From Mesorhizobium sp. WSM3862 (GTDB lineage: Bacteria > Pseudomonadota > Alphaproteobacteria > Rhizobiales > Rhizobiaceae): 64,000 nt of DNA. Under the pieces are notes generated by a model. The model was not told where the DNA came from, did not search any database, and saw only the letters and a list, made by a program, of their open reading frames with translations. The stretch lies in contig NZ_NSGE01000006.1 of assembly GCF_002294985.1 (NCBI RefSeq), forward strand, positions 62,001 through 126,000. Direction: 5' to 3'. Both the position numbers and the translations under genes were made by a program. Within the stretch, counting starts at the first letter, position 1. Each line of letters begins with the position of its first letter. Shown here in pieces: positions 23,143-61,138 of this stretch.

Positions 23143-24396
23143 TCAGCCTGCGGCCCTTGCCGGCTCGTCCTGGCTGAAGGCCGCAAGCGCCGCCTTCAGC
23201 GCATCCGGCCCGGCTGCCACGGTGTGAGGCGCGGGCGAGAAGCCGGCGCCGAGCATCTTGCGGCCGAGCATGTGGTCGGCCGGGCGGTTGACGGATTCGA
23301 TGCCGAGCAGTCTGTTGCCGGCATAATGGTAGATCGAGAACTTGTTCTCGGCCGGCTCGCCCAGCACGACATGGCTGTCGCCGCCTTGCGTCAGGCCGAC
23401 CATCTGCAGCTTCATGTCGCCGATATCCGACCAGAACCAAGGCACGGCCGCGAAGGGTTCGGCGTGGCCGACGATGGTGCGCGCGGCAAGCCGCGCCTGG
23501 TCGGTGGCGTTCTGCACCGATTCCAGCCGCACGTCGCCGCCGGTGAACCAGTGCCGGTAGGAGGCGGCATCGCCGACGGCGAGGATTTCCGGGATCGAGC
23601 TCTGCATATGCTGGTCGACGCGGATGCCGTTGGCGATCGCGATGCCGGCGGCTTCGGCCAGCTCGACATTGGGCACCACGCCGATGCCGATGATCACCAG
23701 TTGCGCCGGCAGGCGCTCGCCGCTTAACGTGATCGCGGCCGAAACGCGGCCGCCTTCGCCTTCCAGACGGGCAACCGTGGTGCCGGTGAGCACGCGCACG
23801 CCCATCGCCTCCAGGCGCTGGCGCACATGCGCCGCGATCGCCGGCGCCACGGCGCGGCCGAGAAGCCTGTCGAGCGCCTCGACGACGGTGACCTTGCGGC
23901 CGGCGGCCCTCAGCGTCGCTGCGATTTCGAGGCCGATGAAGCCGCCGCCGAGGATGACGACCTCTTCGCTCTGCGCGCTCAACTCGCGGATCAGCCGCGC
24001 ATCGGCCAGCGAGCGCAGCGACAGCACGCCGGCGAGCTCCGCGCCATCGAGCTTGAGGAGGCGCGGCCGCGAGCCGGTGGCCAGCACCAGTAGGTCGAAG
24101 GGAATTGTGCCGCCGCCTGAAACGTCCAGCCTGCGCTCGCCACCATCGATCCTGTCGATCCAAACGCCCGGCCGGTAGTCGATGGCATTGCCGGAATAGA
24201 AGGCCTCGCCGCGCAAAGGCTGCGGCTTGGCTTCGGCCTCCTTGATGAAGGTCTTGGACAGCGGCGGCTTGTGATAGGGCAGCTCGTTCTCGTCGCCGAT
24301 CAGGATGACAGGCCCGTCATAGCCTTCCTCACGCAGGCTAGCGGCCGCCTGCACGCCGGCATGACCCGCACCGACAATGACCACCCCGTTCTTCAT
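23143..24396 (-). CDS. FAD/NAD(P)-dependent ferredoxin-reductase-like oxidoreductase
   Basis: This is a 417-residue flavoprotein of the putidaredoxin/rhodocoxin reductase type, which moves electrons from NAD(P)H to a 2Fe-2S ferredoxin. The FAD-binding motif is VIVGAGHAGVQAA at the N terminus, the second dinucleotide fold has VVILGGGFIGLEIAATL, and the second FAD contact is ILAVGDAA. The C-terminal domain (VPWFWSDIGDMKLQMVG) is typical of the group. An AAGGG ribosome site lies 7 nt before ATG 24396. No ferredoxin or oxygenase gene is adjacent, so its partner is unknown. It is divergent from the iron operon. Confidence 0.88.
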   Translation of the reverse strand: MKNGVVIVGAGHAGVQAAASLREEGYDGPVILIGDENELPYHKPPLSKTFIKEAEAKPQPLRGEAFYSGNAIDYRPGVWIDRIDGGERRLDVSGGGTIPFDLLVLATGSRPRLLKLDGAELAGVLSLRSLADARLIRELSAQSEEVVILGGGFIGLEIAATLRAAGRKVTVVEALDRLLGRAVAPAIAAHVRQRLEAMGVRVLTGTTVARLEGEGGRVSAAITLSGERLPAQLVIIGIGVVPNVELAEAAGIAIANGIRVDQHMQSSIPEILAVGDAASYRHWFTGGDVRLESVQNATDQARLAARTIVGHAEPFAAVPWFWSDIGDMKLQMVGLTQGGDSHVVLGEPAENKFSIYHYAGNRLLGIESVNRPADHMLGRKMLGAGFSPAPHTVAAGPDALKAALAAFSQDEPARAAG

Positions 24397-24545: not shown

Positions 24546-24568
24546 CAGTTTAGAATAATTCTAAACTG
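24546..24568. promoter_or_regulatory. Irr box (iron control element), perfect palindrome
   Basis: An 11-bp perfect inverted repeat around one A reads CAGTTTAGAAT-A-ATTCTAAACTG. Its core, TTTAGAA-TAA-TTCTAAA (24549-24565), equals the published consensus of the iron control element bound by Irr in Rhizobiales. A TTGATA hexamer (24536-24541) lies just upstream, so the box would cover a promoter spacer and -10 region, the position of a repressor site. It precedes the imelysin operon by about 250 nt; the flavoprotein start is 150 nt away in the other direction. The rest of 24397-24697 shows no other gene. Confidence 0.85.
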
Positions 24569-24697
24569 TTGTTTCAATTGAATTTTCTCTGTACCGCCAG
24601 TTGACTTCCAGCCGCTCCGCCGCTTTATGGAGGGCTGCGCTCCTGGCGCATTCCTTTGATGTCTGGGCCTTTAACCCTTTCGATTGGAGGCATTTCG

Positions 24698-24811
24698 GTG
24701 TCTTTTGCTGATTGGCCGCGCCATTGCGCGGCAACTTTGCCTTTACGGTCATTCGTGCTTGCGCTGGCGCCGCGCGCCGGCGGCCGCATGCCTATGTCAT
24801 TGAATTTCTGA
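24698..24811 (+). CDS. Possible 37-residue leader ORF before the imelysin gene
   Basis: A GTG-started frame of 38 codons (MSFADWPRHC ... MPMSLNF) has a full GGAGG ribosome site with 7-nt spacing (24686-24690). Its TGA stop touches the AGGAG ribosome site of the imelysin gene, a layout seen in translational coupling. The product resembles nothing I know: a Cys, an Arg/Ala/Leu-rich centre and no clear membrane helix. It could be a chance frame in GC-rich DNA. The evidence is ribosome site and position only. Confidence 0.35.
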   Translation: MSFADWPRHCAATLPLRSFVLALAPRAGGRMPMSLNF

Positions 24812-24824
24812 GGAGATGGGATTG

Positions 24825-26141
24825 ATGAAAGCGACAATCACGCCGCGAACTATTGCGCTGCGTTGGGGCACCAGGCTTGCCGCGATCGGCGCCACCGCGG
24901 CGCTGACGGCGGCCGTGTTCTTGCTGCCGGCGAAGGCCGAAACCGATGCTAAGGCGGTGATCAAGACCTATGCCGACATCGCGCTCGCCAAATACGAGGA
25001 TTCGCTGACCACGGCTGAGGCGCTCGACAAGGCCGTCGACGCGCTTCTCGCCAAGCCCTCGGCAGAGACGCTCAACGCTACCCGCGATGCCTGGAAGGCG
25101 GCGCGCGTGCCTTACCAGCAGACCGAGGTCTACCGCTTCGGCAACAAGATCGTGGACGACTGGGAAGGCAAGGTGAATTCCTGGCCGCTGGACGAAGGCC
25201 TGATCGACTATGTCGCCAAGAGCTACGGCACCGAGTCGGACGAGAACTCGCTCTATACGGCGAACGTCATTGCGAACAAGGAGATCGAGATCAACGGCAA
25301 GAAGGTCGACGCCTCGAAGCTGACGCCGGAATTCCTCTCGGGCACGCTGCAGGAAGCCGGCGGCGTCGAGGCCAATGTCGCGACCGGCTATCACGCCATC
25401 GAATTCCTGCTTTGGGGCCAGGACCTGCACGGGACCGGTCCAGGCGCCGGCGAGCGCCCGTACACCGACTACGATCTCAAGAACTGCACTGGCGGCAATT
25501 GCGACCGCCGCGCGGAATATCTGAAGTCGGCAAGCGACCTTCTGGTCTCCGACCTGCAGGAGATGGTCAACAACTGGAAGGAAGACGGCGCCGCCCGCAA
25601 GACCCTCGTCGATGGCGAGCCGAATGCCGGCATCTCCACCATCCTCACCGGCATGGGCTCGCTATCCTATGGCGAGCTGGCCGGCGAGCGCATGAAGCTC
25701 GGCCTTTTGCTGCACGACCCGGAGGAGGAGCAGGACTGCTTCTCCGACAACACCTACAACTCGCATCTCTATGATGCGATCGGCATCCGCGCCGCCTATC
25801 ACGCCAACTATACGCGCCTCGACGGCACCGTGGTTTCCGGCCCGTCGGTGTCGGACATGGTGAAGGTGGCCGATTCTGCGATCGACAAGGAACTGTCGGA
25901 CAAGCTCGATACTTCGGTCGCCAAGATGGAAGCGATCAAGGCGCGGGCGCTGGCCGGCGAGGCCTATGACCAGCAGATCGCCGAAGGCAATGCGGAAGGC
26001 AACGCCACTGTGCAGGCGGCGATCGACGCGCTGATCGACCAGACCAAGTCGATCGAACGCGCGGTCGGCTCGCTCAAGCTCAATGCCATCGCCTTCGAGG
26101 GCTCCGACAGCCTTGATGCTCCGGACAAGGTATTCAAGTAG
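24825..26141 (+). CDS. Imelysin family protein (IrpA-like), periplasmic
   Basis: This is an iron-regulated M75/imelysin-fold protein, 438 residues. It has a signal peptide (hydrophobic AAIGATAALTAAVFLLPAKA) and the imelysin signature G188-Y-H-A-I-E193 (GxHxxE) with LLWGQDLHGTGPGAGERPYT after it. Family members are helical two-repeat proteins linked to iron uptake; peptidase activity is doubtful. ATG 24825 is used because AGGAG lies 9 nt upstream. It heads the operon behind the Irr box. A palindromic repeat follows its stop directly, which could uncouple its mRNA level from the genes downstream. Confidence 0.88.
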   Translation: MKATITPRTIALRWGTRLAAIGATAALTAAVFLLPAKAETDAKAVIKTYADIALAKYEDSLTTAEALDKAVDALLAKPSAETLNATRDAWKAARVPYQQTEVYRFGNKIVDDWEGKVNSWPLDEGLIDYVAKSYGTESDENSLYTANVIANKEIEINGKKVDASKLTPEFLSGTLQEAGGVEANVATGYHAIEFLLWGQDLHGTGPGAGERPYTDYDLKNCTGGNCDRRAEYLKSASDLLVSDLQEMVNNWKEDGAARKTLVDGEPNAGISTILTGMGSLSYGELAGERMKLGLLLHDPEEEQDCFSDNTYNSHLYDAIGIRAAYHANYTRLDGTVVSGPSVSDMVKVADSAIDKELSDKLDTSVAKMEAIKARALAGEAYDQQIAEGNAEGNATVQAAIDALIDQTKSIERAVGSLKLNAIAFEGSDSLDAPDKVFK

Positions 26142-26146
26142 CACCC

Positions 26147-26195
26147 GAGCATGATCCCAAAAAGTGGAAGCCGGTTTTTGGACAAGATCATGCTC
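26147..26195. repeat. GATCATGC-family palindromic repeat, complete copy
   Basis: Nested inverted repeats: outer GAGCATGATC and GATCATGCTC (10 bp, perfect), inner CCAAAAA and TTTTTGG (7 bp). It starts 6 nt after the imelysin stop and ends 56 nt before the bfd start. Confidence 0.85.
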
Positions 26196-26250
26196 AATTG
26201 AGAAACAAGCCAAACGGCGCCGGAACAGCGCCGCCAGCCAGAGCAAGTGA

Positions 26251-26562
26251 ATGCTGATCTGCCATTGCAACATCATCACCGAGAAGGAGATCGAGCAGAC
26301 GATCATCGGTCTGCTGGATGAAGATCCCTGGCAGCTTATCGTGCCGGCCAAGGTCTATCATGCCATGCGCAAGCGCGGCCGCTGTTGCGGCTGCTTTCCA
26401 AATGTGGTGGAAACGATCATTCGGGTCACCGAGAACTACCACGCCCGTTCAGAGGGGAGCGGCGCGGATATCGTTTCACACCTGGACCGCGTCAGAGGAC
26501 TGCGCGGCCAATTCGGGAGCAGAACCCATGAAAGGCGAACCGCAGGTCATCGAGCGGCTTAA
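26251..26562 (+). CDS. bfd: Bacterioferritin-associated ferredoxin
   Basis: This 2Fe-2S protein reduces ferric iron in bacterioferritin so that it can be released. The 103-residue protein has the BFD fold cysteines: Cys4 and Cys6 (CHC), then Cys45 and Cys48 in RCCGCF (CxxC). E. coli Bfd is about 64 residues; here about 30 basic residues continue after the fold and the frame overlaps the bfr start by 35 nt. Whether this tail is functional is unclear. Pairing with bfr directly downstream supports the assignment. Confidence 0.88.
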
Positions 26563-27013
26563 CGAAGCCCTATTTCTGGAGCTTGGTGCCGTCAATCAGT
26601 ACTGGGTTCATTATCGTCTGCTCGAAGACTGGGGCTACACCAAGCTGGCGAAGAAGGAGCGGGCGGAATCGATCGAAGAAATGCATCACGCCGACCGGCT
26701 GGTTGCCCGCATCATCTTCCTCGAAGGCCATCCGAACCTGCAGTCAGTCGCGCCGTTGCGTATCGGCCAGAATGTGAAGGAAGTGCTCGAATCCGATCTC
26801 GCCGGCGAATATGACGCGCGCACCTCCTACAAGCGCTCGCGCGAGATTTGCCAGGATGCGGGCGACTATGTGTCGATGAAACTGTTCGAGGATCTGCTGA
26901 CGGACGAGGAAGGCCACATCGACTTCCTGGAGAGTCAGCTCGACCTGCTCGCCTCGATCGGCGAGGAAAAGTACGGCCAGCTCAACGCCGACTCGGCCAA
27001 CGAGGCGGAGTAA
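26528..27013 (+). CDS. bfr: Bacterioferritin
   Basis: This is a haem-containing 24-subunit iron storage protein of the cytoplasm. All ferroxidase ligands sit at canonical positions: Glu18, Glu51, His54, Glu94, Glu127 and His130; Met52 is the inter-subunit haem ligand. Length (161) is standard. The ATG at 26528 lies within the end of bfd, so translation is probably coupled. It is unusual to find bfd-bfr between an imelysin and a di-haem protein gene; all may respond to Irr. Confidence 0.96.
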
Positions 27014-27025
27014 GGACATGCGGGA

Positions 27026-28627
27026 ATGCGGCGCCCGATAGATTTTTCGCGCCGCTCGCGGCGGGCCGAGATAGCCGGCCTGCTGCTCCCGAGGAACCCG
27101 CGATACCGGATCTGGCGCGGTGCCACGCTCCTGCTGGCAATCACGCTTTCTGCTCCCGCCATGGCGGGCGAGCCGGCGGGTCTGCCGACGAGCCGCACAG
27201 ATCTGACGCCGGGGGATCAGGCGCGGGTGCTGGCGGTCACCAAGCCTACGACCGACTTTACAAAGCCCGAACCGTTCGAGCTGATGCAGGGCGGCGCCGG
27301 CACGTCGAGGAAGGGCGTCAACCGCGACGCCTTCTCGCAGCCTTCCGCCAACATCACCTTCGAGGAGGAAGCGACCTTCAAGCTCGGCAATGCGCTTTTT
27401 CGCAAGAACTGGGTGTCGTCGCCGTCATCGACCCAAGCGTCCGACGGGCTCGGGCCGCTGTTCAACGAACGCGCCTGCCAGAACTGCCATCTGAAGGATG
27501 GTCGCGGCCGACCGCCGGAAAGCGGCACAGGCTCGACCTCGATGTTCTTGCGGCTGGCGCGCGATGCAAGCAATGCCGAGGAGAGAGCCGAACTTGCCGA
27601 CTACAAGCTGCTGAATTTCCCCGATCCTGTCTATGGCTCGCAATTGCAGGATCTGGCGGTTCCCGGCCTCAAGGGTGAAGGCCGCATGCGCATCGACTAT
27701 TCGGAAGCGAAGGTCACGCTGGGCGACGGTGCCGTCGTTTTGCTGCGCAAGCCCCGCTATTCGGTCGAGAATCTGGGCTATGGCCAACTCGATCCGCGCA
27801 CGACGTTGTCGCCGCGCCTGACGCCGCCAATGATCGGGCTCGGACTGATCGAGGAGATCGCCCCGGCCGACATCCTCGCCCTTGCCGATCCGCGTGACCG
27901 CGACAGCGACGGCATCTCCGGCCGGCCGAACCTAGTTCGCGAGGAGTTGAGCGGCGCGATAACTTTGGGCCGCTTCGGCTGGAAAGCGCAGGCCGCATCG
28001 ATCCGGCAGCAGGCCGCCGATGCCTTTGCCGGCGATATCGGCATCTCGACGCCTGAAGTGCCGAAGCATTGGGGCGATTGCACCGAGGCTGAGAAGGCGT
28101 GCCTTACCCTGCCGAATGGCGTCCAAGAGCGCCTGGGCGCGGCGGAAGCGCCGCCCCCGGTCATGGACCTCGTGACCTTCTATTCGCAGAACCTCGCTGT
28201 GCCGGCGCGGCGCGACCTCGACAAGCCGGAGGTTCTTTCCGGCAAGAAGCAGTTCTACGAGATGGGCTGCATTTCCTGCCACACGCCGAAATTCGTCACC
28301 ATGCGCGGCACGCCCAACAAGGCGCAAGCCTTCCAATTGATCTGGCCATATTCCGATTTCCTGCTGCACGACATGGGCGAGGGCCTCGCCGACGGGCAGC
28401 GCGTAGGGGAGGCGAGCGGCAGCGAATGGCGCACGCCCCCGCTCTGGGGCATCGGCCTGACCGCCACGGTCAACGGCAACAGCTTCTATCTGCATGACGG
28501 CCGCGCGCGGACGCTCGAAGAGGCGATCTTGTGGCACGGCGGCGAGGGCCAGAAGGCGCGCGACCGCTTCGCCGGCGCGGCTGGCGCCGACCGCGATGCG
28601 CTGATCAAATTCCTGGAGTCGCTCTGA
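27026..28627 (+). CDS. Di-haem oxidoreductase (DHOR family, COG3488), periplasmic
   Basis: This 533-residue protein has an N-terminal signal (hydrophobic ATLLLAITLSAPAMA, preceded by a long basic segment) and two c-type haem sites, CQNCH (residues 151-155) and CISCH (415-419). The family, often annotated as thiol oxidoreductase, is related to di-haem peroxidases. Conserved stretches include the GLGPLFNERAC motif before the first haem and the GLG-LIEEI and FYLHDGRA stretches. Genes of this family often lie beside imelysin genes. A role in oxidising or reducing iron at the periplasmic imelysins is inferred from context. ATG 27026 has AAGGA 9 nt upstream; it starts 12 nt after bfr. Confidence 0.85.
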   Translation: MRRPIDFSRRSRRAEIAGLLLPRNPRYRIWRGATLLLAITLSAPAMAGEPAGLPTSRTDLTPGDQARVLAVTKPTTDFTKPEPFELMQGGAGTSRKGVNRDAFSQPSANITFEEEATFKLGNALFRKNWVSSPSSTQASDGLGPLFNERACQNCHLKDGRGRPPESGTGSTSMFLRLARDASNAEERAELADYKLLNFPDPVYGSQLQDLAVPGLKGEGRMRIDYSEAKVTLGDGAVVLLRKPRYSVENLGYGQLDPRTTLSPRLTPPMIGLGLIEEIAPADILALADPRDRDSDGISGRPNLVREELSGAITLGRFGWKAQAASIRQQAADAFAGDIGISTPEVPKHWGDCTEAEKACLTLPNGVQERLGAAEAPPPVMDLVTFYSQNLAVPARRDLDKPEVLSGKKQFYEMGCISCHTPKFVTMRGTPNKAQAFQLIWPYSDFLLHDMGEGLADGQRVGEASGSEWRTPPLWGIGLTATVNGNSFYLHDGRARTLEEAILWHGGEGQKARDRFAGAAGADRDALIKFLESL

Positions 28628-29706
28628 TGTTCAACCGACGTGCCGCCGCGCTTGCCCTTCCTTTCTTGCTGGCCATGGCCTTGCCGACCCAGCCCGCGGT
28701 CAAAGCCTCCGATGTCATCGGACGCGCGATCGACGGCTTCGTCCGCCCGGCCTACGCCAGCCTCGACGACCATGCCGGGACCCTGACCCAGGCGATGCGC
28801 CAGCTCTGCAGTGCGCCGTCCCAGCAGAATCTCGATGCGGTGCGTACCGAGTTTTCCGCCACAGTCGAAGCCTGGTCGGTGGCCGAGATCATCGCCTTCG
28901 GGCCCATCAAGGAAAACAACCGGCTGGAGCGCATGCTTTACTGGCCGGACCGCAAGAGCATCGGATTGAGGCAGGTGCAGTCGACCCTCGTTGCCAAGGA
29001 TCCATCCGCCACCGATCCGGCGCAACTCGCGGGAAAGAGCGTTGCCATGCAGGGCCTCGGTGCGTTGGAATATGTGCTATTCGGCGATGGCGCCGAAACG
29101 CTTGCCAGTAAGGACGATCCCTATCGATGCGCCTACGGGGCGGCGGTGGCCAGCAACATCCAAGCGATCGCCGGCGAGGTCCGCGAAGCGTGGCGCAAGC
29201 CCGATGGTTTTGCCTCGCTCTGGGCCAATCCGGGGCCGAAGAACCCGCTCTATCGTGATGGTACCGAGGCGGTTACGGAACTGGTCGGCGTTTTCATCAA
29301 TGAGCTGGAAATGATCCGCGACGTGCGGCTCAAGGGTTTTCTTGGCGCGAAGCCCGATGCTGACAAGCCGAAGCAGGCGATCTACTGGCGCTCGCAGAAC
29401 ACGCTGAAATCGCTGGCCGGAAATCTGTCGGGCATCGACAAGCTGTTCCAGGCCTCCAAGCTTGGCGATGCGCTGCCCGCCGATGCGCGGTGGATGGCCG
29501 AATCCATCCACATCCAGCTGACCAACGGCGTGGCGACGGCGAAGTCTGTTAGCGGCCCGATCGACAAGGCGCTCGCCGATCCGGCGCTACGCGACAAGCT
29601 CGAGCATCTCGCGCTGATCACCTCCAGCCTCTCGACCCTGATCGGCACCAGGATGACCGCCGAGTTTGGCCTGACCGCCGGCTTTTCGTCGCTGGACGGT
29701 GATTGA
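28627..29706 (+). CDS. Second imelysin family protein, lacking the motif histidine
   Basis: A 359-residue exported protein (signal MFNRRAAALALPFLLAMALP) of the imelysin/M75 family, clearly different from the first. At the place of GxHxxE it reads G143-L-G-A-L-E148, so the His is Gly while Gly and Glu remain. Other helices (FINELEMIRDVRLKGFLG) match the family. It shares a base with the DHOR stop (TGATG), indicating tight co-expression. It may bind iron differently or act as a partner of the first imelysin. Confidence 0.85.
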   Translation: MFNRRAAALALPFLLAMALPTQPAVKASDVIGRAIDGFVRPAYASLDDHAGTLTQAMRQLCSAPSQQNLDAVRTEFSATVEAWSVAEIIAFGPIKENNRLERMLYWPDRKSIGLRQVQSTLVAKDPSATDPAQLAGKSVAMQGLGALEYVLFGDGAETLASKDDPYRCAYGAAVASNIQAIAGEVREAWRKPDGFASLWANPGPKNPLYRDGTEAVTELVGVFINELEMIRDVRLKGFLGAKPDADKPKQAIYWRSQNTLKSLAGNLSGIDKLFQASKLGDALPADARWMAESIHIQLTNGVATAKSVSGPIDKALADPALRDKLEHLALITSSLSTLIGTRMTAEFGLTAGFSSLDGD

Positions 29707-30817
29707 CGTCGTGACGACGCCGCTCATCGATCGCCGCGACTTTCTGCGTGCCGCCGGCGCCGGCTTCGCCACGGCGATGGTGCCGCGCGCCTGGGCGGAG
29801 ACGCTTGCAACGGACGCCGTCTTCGCCACGGCCTTCGTCAGGCGCGACGGCAGCTTCGGCGCCGCCGTGCTCTCCGAGGCCGGCAAGATCCTTCACACGC
29901 TCGATCTGCCCGACCGTGGCCACGACGTCGCGTTCGATCCGGTGTCGAAACGCTCGATCGTCTTCGCCCGCCAGCCCGGCACCTTCGCGATGGTCTTCGA
30001 CCACACCGGCCGCGAGGAGCCTTTGACCATCGCCAGCATCGCCGGCCGGCACTTCTTCGGTCACGGCGTGTTCTCGCCCGACGGCGCGCTGCTCTATGCA
30101 ACGGAAAATGATTTCGACAACGCCGCCGGCGTCGTCGGCGTCTATGACGCGCGGGCGAAGTTCAGCCGCGTCGGCGAGTTCCCGACCTACGGCACGGGTC
30201 CGCACGAACTGCTGCTGCTCGGCGACGGCAGGACGCTCGCCGTCGCGAATGGCGGCATCGAAACGCATCCGGATTTCGGCCGCGCCGAGCTCAACATCGC
30301 AACGATGAAGCCTTCCTACACGCTGGTCGACCGCATCACTGGCGACCTGATCGAAAAGCACGAATTGCCGCCGGCGCTGCATCAGCTGTCGATCCGTCAC
30401 ATGGACCGCGACCAGGCGGGCACCGTCTGGTTCGGCTGCCAGTATCGCGGGCCGGCGACTGACCGGCCGGCGCTGGTCGGCCGCGCCGCGCGCGGCAAGG
30501 AGCTCGAGCTTTTGGAGATGCCGCAGGACGTGCTGTCGGGCTTCCGCAACTATATCGGCTCGGTTGCCGCCAATCCCGATGCCGGCACCGTCGCCGTGAC
30601 CTCGCCGGAGGGTAATTCGCTGGCCGCCATCGATGCCGCCAGCGGACGCGTTGTCGCAACGAAGTCGCTGGTCGAAGTTTGCGGTCTCGCGCCGGACGGC
30701 GCCGACTTCATGGCAACGACCGGTGCTGGCGAGATCGTCGGCGGTGCGGGCGGGTCGCGCGCCGAACCTGACTATGTCTGGGACAACCACGTGCTGCGCA
30801 TCGCGGCTGCGGGCTGA
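29699..30817 (+). CDS. DUF1513 protein with Tat signal, probable beta-propeller
   Basis: This is a 372-residue protein with a twin-arginine-type signal (IDRRDFLRAAGAGFATAMVP) followed by a repeated beta-rich body with HDVAFDP, GHGVFSPDGALLYATEND and NYIGSVAANPDAGTVAVTSP, as in beta-propellers. The family has no established function but is regularly linked to imelysin and DHOR genes. Tat export suggests a pre-folded or cofactor-bound protein. The start is GTG 29699 (overlapping the preceding stop) or GTG 29711. It is the last gene of the operon. Confidence 0.82.
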   Translation: MIDVVTTPLIDRRDFLRAAGAGFATAMVPRAWAETLATDAVFATAFVRRDGSFGAAVLSEAGKILHTLDLPDRGHDVAFDPVSKRSIVFARQPGTFAMVFDHTGREEPLTIASIAGRHFFGHGVFSPDGALLYATENDFDNAAGVVGVYDARAKFSRVGEFPTYGTGPHELLLLGDGRTLAVANGGIETHPDFGRAELNIATMKPSYTLVDRITGDLIEKHELPPALHQLSIRHMDRDQAGTVWFGCQYRGPATDRPALVGRAARGKELELLEMPQDVLSGFRNYIGSVAANPDAGTVAVTSPEGNSLAAIDAASGRVVATKSLVEVCGLAPDGADFMATTGAGEIVGGAGGSRAEPDYVWDNHVLRIAAAG

Positions 30818-60706: not shown

Positions 60707-61138
60707 ATGGATTCGGGCTGCCGGAAGGAAAATGTCGCTGTGGACAAGCGGGTTCGCGAAGCCGGCCTGAGGCCGACGCGCCAGCGCATTGCGCTGGCCG
60801 ACCTGCTTTTCGCCAAGGGCGACCGTCACCTCTCGGCCGAAGAATTGCATGAAGAGGCGATCGCCGCCGGTGTGCCGGTTTCGCTGGCCACCGTCTACAA
60901 TGCCCTTCATCAATTCACCCAGGCCGGCATGCTGCGCATCCTCGCCGTCGAAGGGTCGAAGACCTATTTCGACACCAACACTTCCGATCACCACCACTTC
61001 TATGTCGAGGGCGAGAACCGGATCTTCGATATCGCCAGCGGCCCGGTGAGCGTCTCCAACCTGCCGGAGCCTCCGGAAGGCATGGAGATCGCCAACGTCG
61101 ATATCGTGGTGAGGCTGCGCCCCAAGCGCCGCGACTGA
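60707..61138 (+). CDS. irr: Iron response regulator Irr (Fur family)
   Basis: Irr is a Fur-family regulator of Rhizobiales that acts under iron limitation and is inactivated or degraded through haem. The 143-residue protein has the winged-helix part LRPTRQRIALADLLF and SLATVYNALHQFTQAGMLR, and the characteristic triple His in TSDHHHFYVEGEN (His95-97), the second haem site of Irr. The N-terminal Gly-Cys-Pro haem motif of Bradyrhizobium Irr is absent, as in Rhizobium. ATG 60707 is used; a GTG at 60740 is possible. Position opposite fabA is conserved in rhizobia. It likely acts on the box at 24546. Confidence 0.92.
   Translation: MDSGCRKENVAVDKRVREAGLRPTRQRIALADLLFAKGDRHLSAEELHEEAIAAGVPVSLATVYNALHQFTQAGMLRILAVEGSKTYFDTNTSDHHHFYVEGENRIFDIASGPVSVSNLPEPPEGMEIANVDIVVRLRPKRRD

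Follow-up and report, generated by a model that had tools for sequence, protein, structure and literature searches.

The closest described relative of the locus analysed here is an operon of Rhodobacter sphaeroides, RSP_1548 to RSP_1543, which comprises irpA, bfd, bfr and genes for a two-haem thiol oxidoreductase, a signal-peptide protein and a hypothetical protein (PMC4618611). According to the dRNA-seq data as read there, this operon probably forms one transcript with hemP in front, and IscR acts as its repressor at Iron-Rhodo boxes, of which one lies within the operon (PMC4618611). The ratio of wild-type expression without and with iron was 4.05 for irpA, 2.71 for bfd and 1.99 for bfr (PMC3413700), and this rise in low iron was little altered by deletion of irr (PMC3413700, PMC4176601). 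The same six-gene order is found in Mesorhizobium sp. WSM3862, within a stretch of 64 kb (the window), where genes for an imelysin, a Bfd-like ferredoxin, bacterioferritin (Bfr), a di-haem oxidoreductase (DHOR), a second imelysin and a DUF1513 protein occupy positions 24816 to 30817 of the plus strand. The likeness lies in this order and in iron regulation, the Rhodobacter order being taken from annotation and not from DNA, with RSP_1544 and RSP_1543 annotated merely as signal-peptide and hypothetical proteins. Unlike the Rhodobacter operon, with its leading hemP and its IscR and Iron-Rhodo boxes, that of Mesorhizobium contains no hemP (the gene of WSM3862 lies on another contig, at C1:679335) and is preceded by an iron control element (ICE, the Irr box) and a leader hairpin. 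Given this precedent, the gene order, the joining of bfd-bfr and the iron response were already known with another regulator; the operon adds a new case, differently regulated, to a published arrangement. Its most novel feature is the leader hairpin, which, together with its order-wide company of iron genes, is apparently undescribed, and it is proposed here that the operon is probably under two controls, one exerted by Irr on transcription and the other by the hairpin on translation.

Other imelysin operons, PA4370-PA4373 of Pseudomonas aeruginosa and VC1264-VC1266 of Vibrio cholerae, likewise encode two imelysins (GxHxxE and GxxxxE) and a DUF1111 di-haem protein and are iron-regulated, but in that report they are Fur-controlled and no bfd-bfr is mentioned for them, in contrast to the Irr-linked operon of Mesorhizobium (PMC3143127). 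In the same study (Xu et al. 2011), the di-haem DUF1111 protein was called an EfeB homologue and the absence of EfeU was remarked upon (PMC3143127). The initial annotation of the Mesorhizobium locus had suggested that the DHOR could stand in the position of EfeB; the idea thus coincides with that of Xu et al., but the haem enzyme is not EfeB by family, since its profile is that of DHOR and no match to a DyP-type peroxidase was obtained in a search that covered the operon proteins and not the genome (DHOR and Cytochrom_C were the only matches of the haem protein). The resemblance to EfeUOB consists in an imelysin-domain protein next to a haem protein, whereas the imelysins of the operon have no cupredoxin domain and the genome of WSM3862 gave no match to an FTR1-family permease of the EfeU type, which fits the suggestion, made in the initial annotation, that the periplasmic iron system lacks a permease of its own. 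The same annotation had pointed to the joining of bfd-bfr with the imelysin set, which is present in the sequence but not new, having been printed for R. sphaeroides.

The Irr box, TTTAGAATAATTCTAAA, at 24549 to 24565, agrees with TTTAGAA-N3-TTCTAAA without mismatch, as initially read, and is the sole match at up to three mismatches within the window, where 0.21 would be expected. Its conservation was followed in Mesorhizobium-like loci, defined as the best 80 of 259 confirmed places retrieved with the DHOR protein as query: in all 79 that reach far enough upstream the box is free of mismatches, with variation in the three spacer bases, and its distance to the imelysin start is between 199 and 279 nt. 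In the 6.18-Mb genome there are two perfect boxes, that of the operon and one followed by a protein with Rubrerythrin and VIT1 domains, hence of MbfA type, and of the two boxes with one mismatch one lies before the gene for an Nfu protein and the other before that for a class-V aminotransferase, read as a cysteine desulfurase; the list was restricted to boxes with zero or one mismatch because at two mismatches a reversed control pattern yields a similar number of sites (8 versus 6 per strand). The presumed regulator, irrA, is encoded about 30 kb from the operon, within the window (60707 to 61138, plus strand; NF045678, 222.6 bits against a cut-off of 150). Control by Irr, which had been anticipated, is well supported as a prediction by the conserved perfect box, the targets of the other boxes and the presence of irrA. 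The operon may already be listed as an Irr target in Rodionov et al. 2006, and both that study and Amarelle et al. 2019 could contain related predictions.

The direction of this control is suggested by the position of the box. Strongly conserved columns in the alignment of the 80 leaders mark a candidate promoter, GTTGAC-N17-CTTTAT (24600 to 24628, plus strand), whose –35 element lies about 35 nt downstream of the site that Irr would bind. This geometry suggests activation, most likely in low iron, whereas the mbfA box, which ends 17 nt before the ATG and by eye overlaps the likely –10 or start region, suggests repression. Irr is reportedly capable of both, judging by the title of a 2006 paper of Rudolph and co-workers. 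The best surviving alternative, possible though rather unlikely, is that the operon, like mbfA and bfr in Bradyrhizobium, is under repression by Irr when iron is low and serves as a high-iron storage and detoxification unit. This would suit a perfect box shared in the genome with mbfA only and an operon that carries the only bacterioferritin found in the genome (the other ferritin-domain match is a Dps), considering that in Bradyrhizobium the bfr and mbfA genes are reported to be Irr-repressed with very high affinity (PMC4902296). In addition, a second conserved TTGA immediately upstream of the box makes a promoter overlapped by the box possible. However, the conserved promoter of the operon lies downstream of its box, unlike that of mbfA, in a layout common to FbpA-type uptake genes in other families, and the Rhodobacter operon, as published, rises in low iron. 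Activation by Irr is retained as the more probable sign, and two facts count against it: the sharing of the perfect box with mbfA alone, with bfr among the targets, fits repression too, and the R. sphaeroides operon answers to IscR and little to irr deletion in the published data (PMC3413700), so that Irr control is not general to the arrangement.

The second control would reside in the transcript itself, which is predicted to start with an RNA hairpin (24651 to 24692, plus strand) with the loop CCUUUAA and a lower helix that pairs with the Shine-Dalgarno sequence GGAGG. This hairpin was absent from the initial annotation, whose overall interpretation is supported in part. The strongest conservation in the 80 aligned leaders is CCTTTGATGTCTGGGCCTT(G/T)AACCCTTTCGATTGGAGG, and in other families imelysin 1 is preceded by comparable stretches in which the loop is the same and the stems are changed. 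Seeds were taken from imelysin leaders, where the loop with a stem of at least three pairs was found in 6 of 57 upstream regions (about 0.3 to 0.4 expected from background); the inner three pairs helped in this search and the outer helix played no part in it. Sixteen instances align without gaps, with an inner helix (columns 12-17 with 25-30) closing a 7-nt loop, CCUU[G/U]AA. Their outer helix (columns 5-10 with 33-38) includes the GGAG of the Shine-Dalgarno sequence. When the alignment was extended to 43 rows, 89.0% of the cells were paired and double changes were found in 8 of the 12 pairs, amounting to 35 double changes versus 13.4 in shuffles; four of five covariation measures were reached in 0/500 shuffles and the fifth in 3/500, and all slid controls were far lower. 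The covariance model R2 omits six rows, among them five with one extra interior-loop base; in an alignment of 49 rows, of which five are out of register, the picture was the same with two measures weaker (15/500 and 1/500). Moreover, G-U and U-G pairs predominate in the lower helix (columns 8 and 35 form a G-U pair in 37 of the 43 rows), which argues for RNA and against a DNA palindrome. Judged from these alignments, the hairpin has helices that covary over divergent instances.

Several results weigh against this reading of the hairpin. Two of the covariation measures gave weak values (22/500 and 66/500) when the first 16 rows were considered, and relatedness of the rows inflates the covariation counts. 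Eight instances folded singly were not unusually stable (z-scores of –0.16 to –2.17), the hairpin of the window reached a z-score of –0.48 with 60 of 200 shuffles folding equally well, and the Mesorhizobium-type inner helix is merely 3 bp long. In view of these unexceptional energies of single folds, the case for the hairpin rests on conservation, covariation and position. A further point of this kind concerns its company, since half of the hairpins considered below have no recognised ICE.

The distribution of the hairpin was determined with two covariance models. Model R1 placed it in 59 of 199 genomes of the order (E ≤ 0.05) and model R2 in 113 of 397 (E ≤ 0.01), a sample that includes the 199 of R1, while in a class-wide sample only one of 289 genomes, WSM3862 itself, gave a match at E ≤ 0.001. 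The hairpin is present in 79 of the 80 Mesorhizobium-like loci, the remaining one (L063) being a truncated contig, and in a single copy in the WSM3862 genome, where a search with the exact leader sequence matched only itself. One hundred instances, all outside Mesorhizobium, were then read: 40 were R1 matches with E up to 4.1e-4 at loci new to the analysis, weaker R1 matches being excluded, and 60 were taken among the R2 matches listed, from genomes G391 upward, with 3 of 63 such fresh matches omitted. An iron gene was found on the same strand within 3 kb in 94 of the 100, the first being FbpA in 48, imelysin in 28, bfd in 12, FeoB in 2, cupredoxin-FTR1 in 2, a TonB receptor in 1 and HmuQ in 1; of the remaining six, five showed only a protein termed P170 and one none of the reference genes. 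Among the 60 that came from genomes absent from the first sample the count was 54, and, leaving out L355 and L383 (seeds of R1) and L398 (met before), it was 51 of 57, with P170 only in five and none in one. Reading by eye extended to another thirty loci (L254-L283), of which three could not be anchored by script. Because only one of the 16 seeds stood before a TonB receptor and none before FbpA or bfd, the links to these genes are independent of model building. The FbpA identity was checked on L298, whose best solved relatives are iron-binding proteins, and those of FeoB, Bfr, HmuQ, the TonB-siderophore receptor, cupredoxin and FTR1 on example loci. By these matches, the hairpin family is found order-wide before FbpA-type Fe3+ transporters, bfd-bfr, FeoB, FTR1, HmuQ, a TonB receptor and imelysin operons. 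At one locus (L196) two hairpins precede imelysin 1 and a TonB receptor, respectively, and another (L198) has a divergent hairpin pair.

The hairpin is also tied to the start codon. In 69 of the 100 instances its Shine-Dalgarno sequence directly serves the first reference gene (48 FbpA, 8 P170, 6 bfd, 4 imelysin, 2 cupredoxin and 1 TonB receptor), with an almost constant spacing that puts the start at offset 45-47 in 57 of these 69. Upstream, an ICE-like box with up to two mismatches was found within 250 nt in 46 of 92 non-redundant hairpins, mostly with a TTGAC in the interval, compared with a mean of 0.6 and a maximum of 10 for 200 shuffled palindromes. The ICE starts 120 to 91 nt upstream of the hairpin in 33 of 52 sites, and TTGAC lies 80 to 31 nt upstream in 79 of 107 occurrences and between –65 and –35 in 53 of the 92 non-redundant instances. 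The window agrees with this layout of box, promoter, hairpin and start codon, its box starting at –102 and its TTGAC at –50.

These observations bear on the remaining alternatives. An RNA element is favoured over a DNA operator or a chance repeat, either of which is improbable: palindromes for regulators are common near such genes and the thermodynamic stability alone is unremarkable, but the position is tied to the start codon, the pairing covaries with G-U wobbles, and the matches are limited to one order and, where read, nearly always precede iron genes. Similarly, there is little likelihood that the operon is simply the Rhodobacter cluster as it occurs in Mesorhizobium, ordinary but for another transcription factor and with a leader of no special interest; the order and the low-iron response are indeed in print (PMC4618611, PMC3413700), but the hairpin is conserved and linked to iron genes across the order. 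Least probable is that the hairpin is the target, in Alphaproteobacteria, of HmuP/HemP, a small regulator reported to work on 5' leaders, for although HmuP is reported to act post-transcriptionally on an Ensifer leader element (PMC9131926, PMC11442138), hemP begins the published Rhodobacter operon and WSM3862 has hemP elsewhere, HemP and the hairpin, each in 59 of 199 genomes, share 17 where 17.5 are expected (Fisher p = 1), a chance-level co-occurrence by which HemP is judged not to be the partner, and the HmuP-responsive element (HPRE) of Chromobacterium, likewise an iron-linked leader element, is CCAGCCAG-rich as quoted and unlike the hairpin in sequence (PMC9131926).

As for the nature of the hairpin, the chances appear evenly divided on whether it represents, in Mesorhizobium, an undescribed iron-responsive RNA element that occurs order-wide. 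The loop of such an element would be bound by an iron-dependent protein or a small RNA, or the element would sense an iron-linked ligand; it would gate the Shine-Dalgarno sequences of genes for the uptake of Fe3+, Fe2+, haem and siderophores and of bfd-bfr and, with an ICE about 100 nt upstream, would constitute a fixed two-layer module. Leader hairpins that take up the ribosome-binding site in the same manner are found among RNA thermometers and small riboswitches. The eukaryotic iron-responsive element (IRE) also has an upper helix, a conserved loop and an interior loop, but its loop is CAGUGN, unlike the CCUU[G/U]AA of the hairpin. Aconitase could conceivably act as an IRE-like binder of the hairpin, which is speculation on our part. 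At the instances compared with Rfam no family attained its gathering score, one scan giving two sub-threshold matches at chance level and another, of eight loci, only a tRNA; no published description of the hairpin was found with the few terms covered, supplements not included.

Downstream of the hairpin, a possible leader open reading frame (GTG, 37 aa; 24698 to 24811, plus strand) has its Shine-Dalgarno sequence in the hairpin and a stop codon separated by 4 nt from the ATG of the imelysin. The idea that it encodes a conserved small protein was rejected, the Shine-Dalgarno sequence and the start being kept and the frame not in all relatives, and because of this variation its coding status is uncertain. 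The leader was also considered as hemP; positions 24566 to 24815 encode no HemP.

All six genes of the operon are open on the same strand in the order initially given, and most of the assigned identities hold. Imelysin 1 (24816 to 26141; IrpA/ICMP type) matches PF09375 with 296.2 bits, carries GYHAIE as its GxHxxE motif and has 7xrx (ICMP) as its best solved relative, whereas imelysin 2 (28627 to 29706; PF09375, 177.8 bits) is of the GxxxxE type, with GLGALE and 3pf0 (IPPA), so that the two differ in motif as had been claimed. The assignment of bfd stands in part: the protein encoded at 26251 to 26562 is a divergent Bfd-like [2Fe-2S] ferredoxin that matches PF04324 with E = 0.011 and 16.5 bits, below the curated cut-off of 26, and whose sole match in a PDB search was a designed repeat protein (E 0.033), but its cysteine motifs (CHC and CCGC by eye), their spacing and its place before bfr suggest a Bfd-like role nonetheless. 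Bfr (26528 to 27013) is recognised by TIGR00754 with 183.5 bits against a cut-off of 125.55. The DHOR (27026 to 28627) matches PF06537 with 338.1 bits and by eye has two CxxCH motifs, in agreement with a two-haem enzyme, and no sequence relative of it was found in the PDB. The DUF1513 protein (29699 or 29711 to 30817; PF07433, 365.8 bits) bears the expected Tat-type signal, RRDFLR by eye. The genes for Bfd and Bfr overlap, as do those for DHOR and imelysin 2, and also those for imelysin 2 and the DUF1513 protein if the GTG at 29699 is the start.

The six-gene order is kept in 78 of the 80 Mesorhizobium-like loci, the exceptions being the truncated contig L063 and L097 (Mesorhizobium sp. B2-4-15), in which bfr is internally deleted at L097:5580-5990 and the remaining operon is intact. 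The order is thus more than chance as far as these genomes tell, and, the 80 being the best of 259, its conservation applies to Mesorhizobium and near kin only. Beyond them, a DHOR relative (E ≤ 1e-30) occurs in 156 of 297 genomes of the order. Among 100 fetched neighbourhoods, 66 from these 156 genomes and 34 from the class sample, 90 have a relative of imelysin 1, seven have bfd and bfr between imelysin 1 and DHOR (L162, L163, L175, L178, L248, L251 and L253) and two have bfd alone there (L156 and L158); divergent Bfds could be missed, because scoring relied on similarity to the Mesorhizobium proteins. Within the same family, the insertion is present in L358, which belongs to another genus, and lacking in four further loci (L149-L151 and L153). 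The Bfrs of such operons cluster on a tree with two label changes, the tree having no Rhodobacter sequences, and the bfd-bfr insertion may have had a single origin. A different way to join storage and imelysin genes is seen in L373, where P170, bfd, bfr, imelysin 2 and DUF1513 come after the hairpin and neither imelysin 1 nor DHOR lies within 3 kb.

P170 is a protein of about 170 residues with conserved cysteines, encoded between the hairpin and imelysin or between FbpA and FbpB at many loci (L322:1343-1873, minus strand; others include L254-L257, L281, L316 and L339-L346) and absent from the WSM3862 operon. It gave no Pfam or NCBIfam match; 242 relatives were found at E ≤ 1e-5, and among the 120 listed those that are named are hypothetical and two to three carry a precomputed PF20333. 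From the names of these relatives, the hosts of the hairpin include Hyphomicrobium. P170 is perhaps linked to the hairpin. At the WSM3862 locus, an inverted repeat, GAGCATGATC/GATCATGCTC, seen by eye at 26147-26156 and 26186-26195 in the gap between imelysin 1 and bfd, resembles an interspersed repeat and could influence read-through into bfd; L097 differs there. Divergent from the operon, a FAD-dependent ferredoxin reductase (Pyr_redox_2 and Reductase_C; 23143-24396, minus strand) adjoins imelysin 1 in 79 of 79 Mesorhizobium-like loci and is possibly an electron donor for Bfd, its gene being possibly a second target of the Irr box.

Under the proposed dual control, the taking up of the Shine-Dalgarno sequence by the lower helix should keep translation low until the hairpin is opened; in Mesorhizobium the hairpin would act on the leader open reading frame, whose translation would be coupled to that of the imelysin. 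The exported imelysins, the di-haem enzyme and the DUF1513 protein would capture periplasmic iron and reduce or oxidise it, and the captured iron would be handed to a permease encoded elsewhere. In the cytoplasm, Bfd and Bfr would buffer iron, Bfr being filled with it and Bfd driving its release. In the literature considered here, iron control in rhizobia and their relatives is described through the DNA-binding regulators Irr, IscR and RirA, plus HmuP. If the proposal is true, the hairpin would add a translational layer across the order together with a ready list of target genes, and it would offer a handle on genes of obscure role, namely those for the imelysins, DHOR, DUF1513 and P170.

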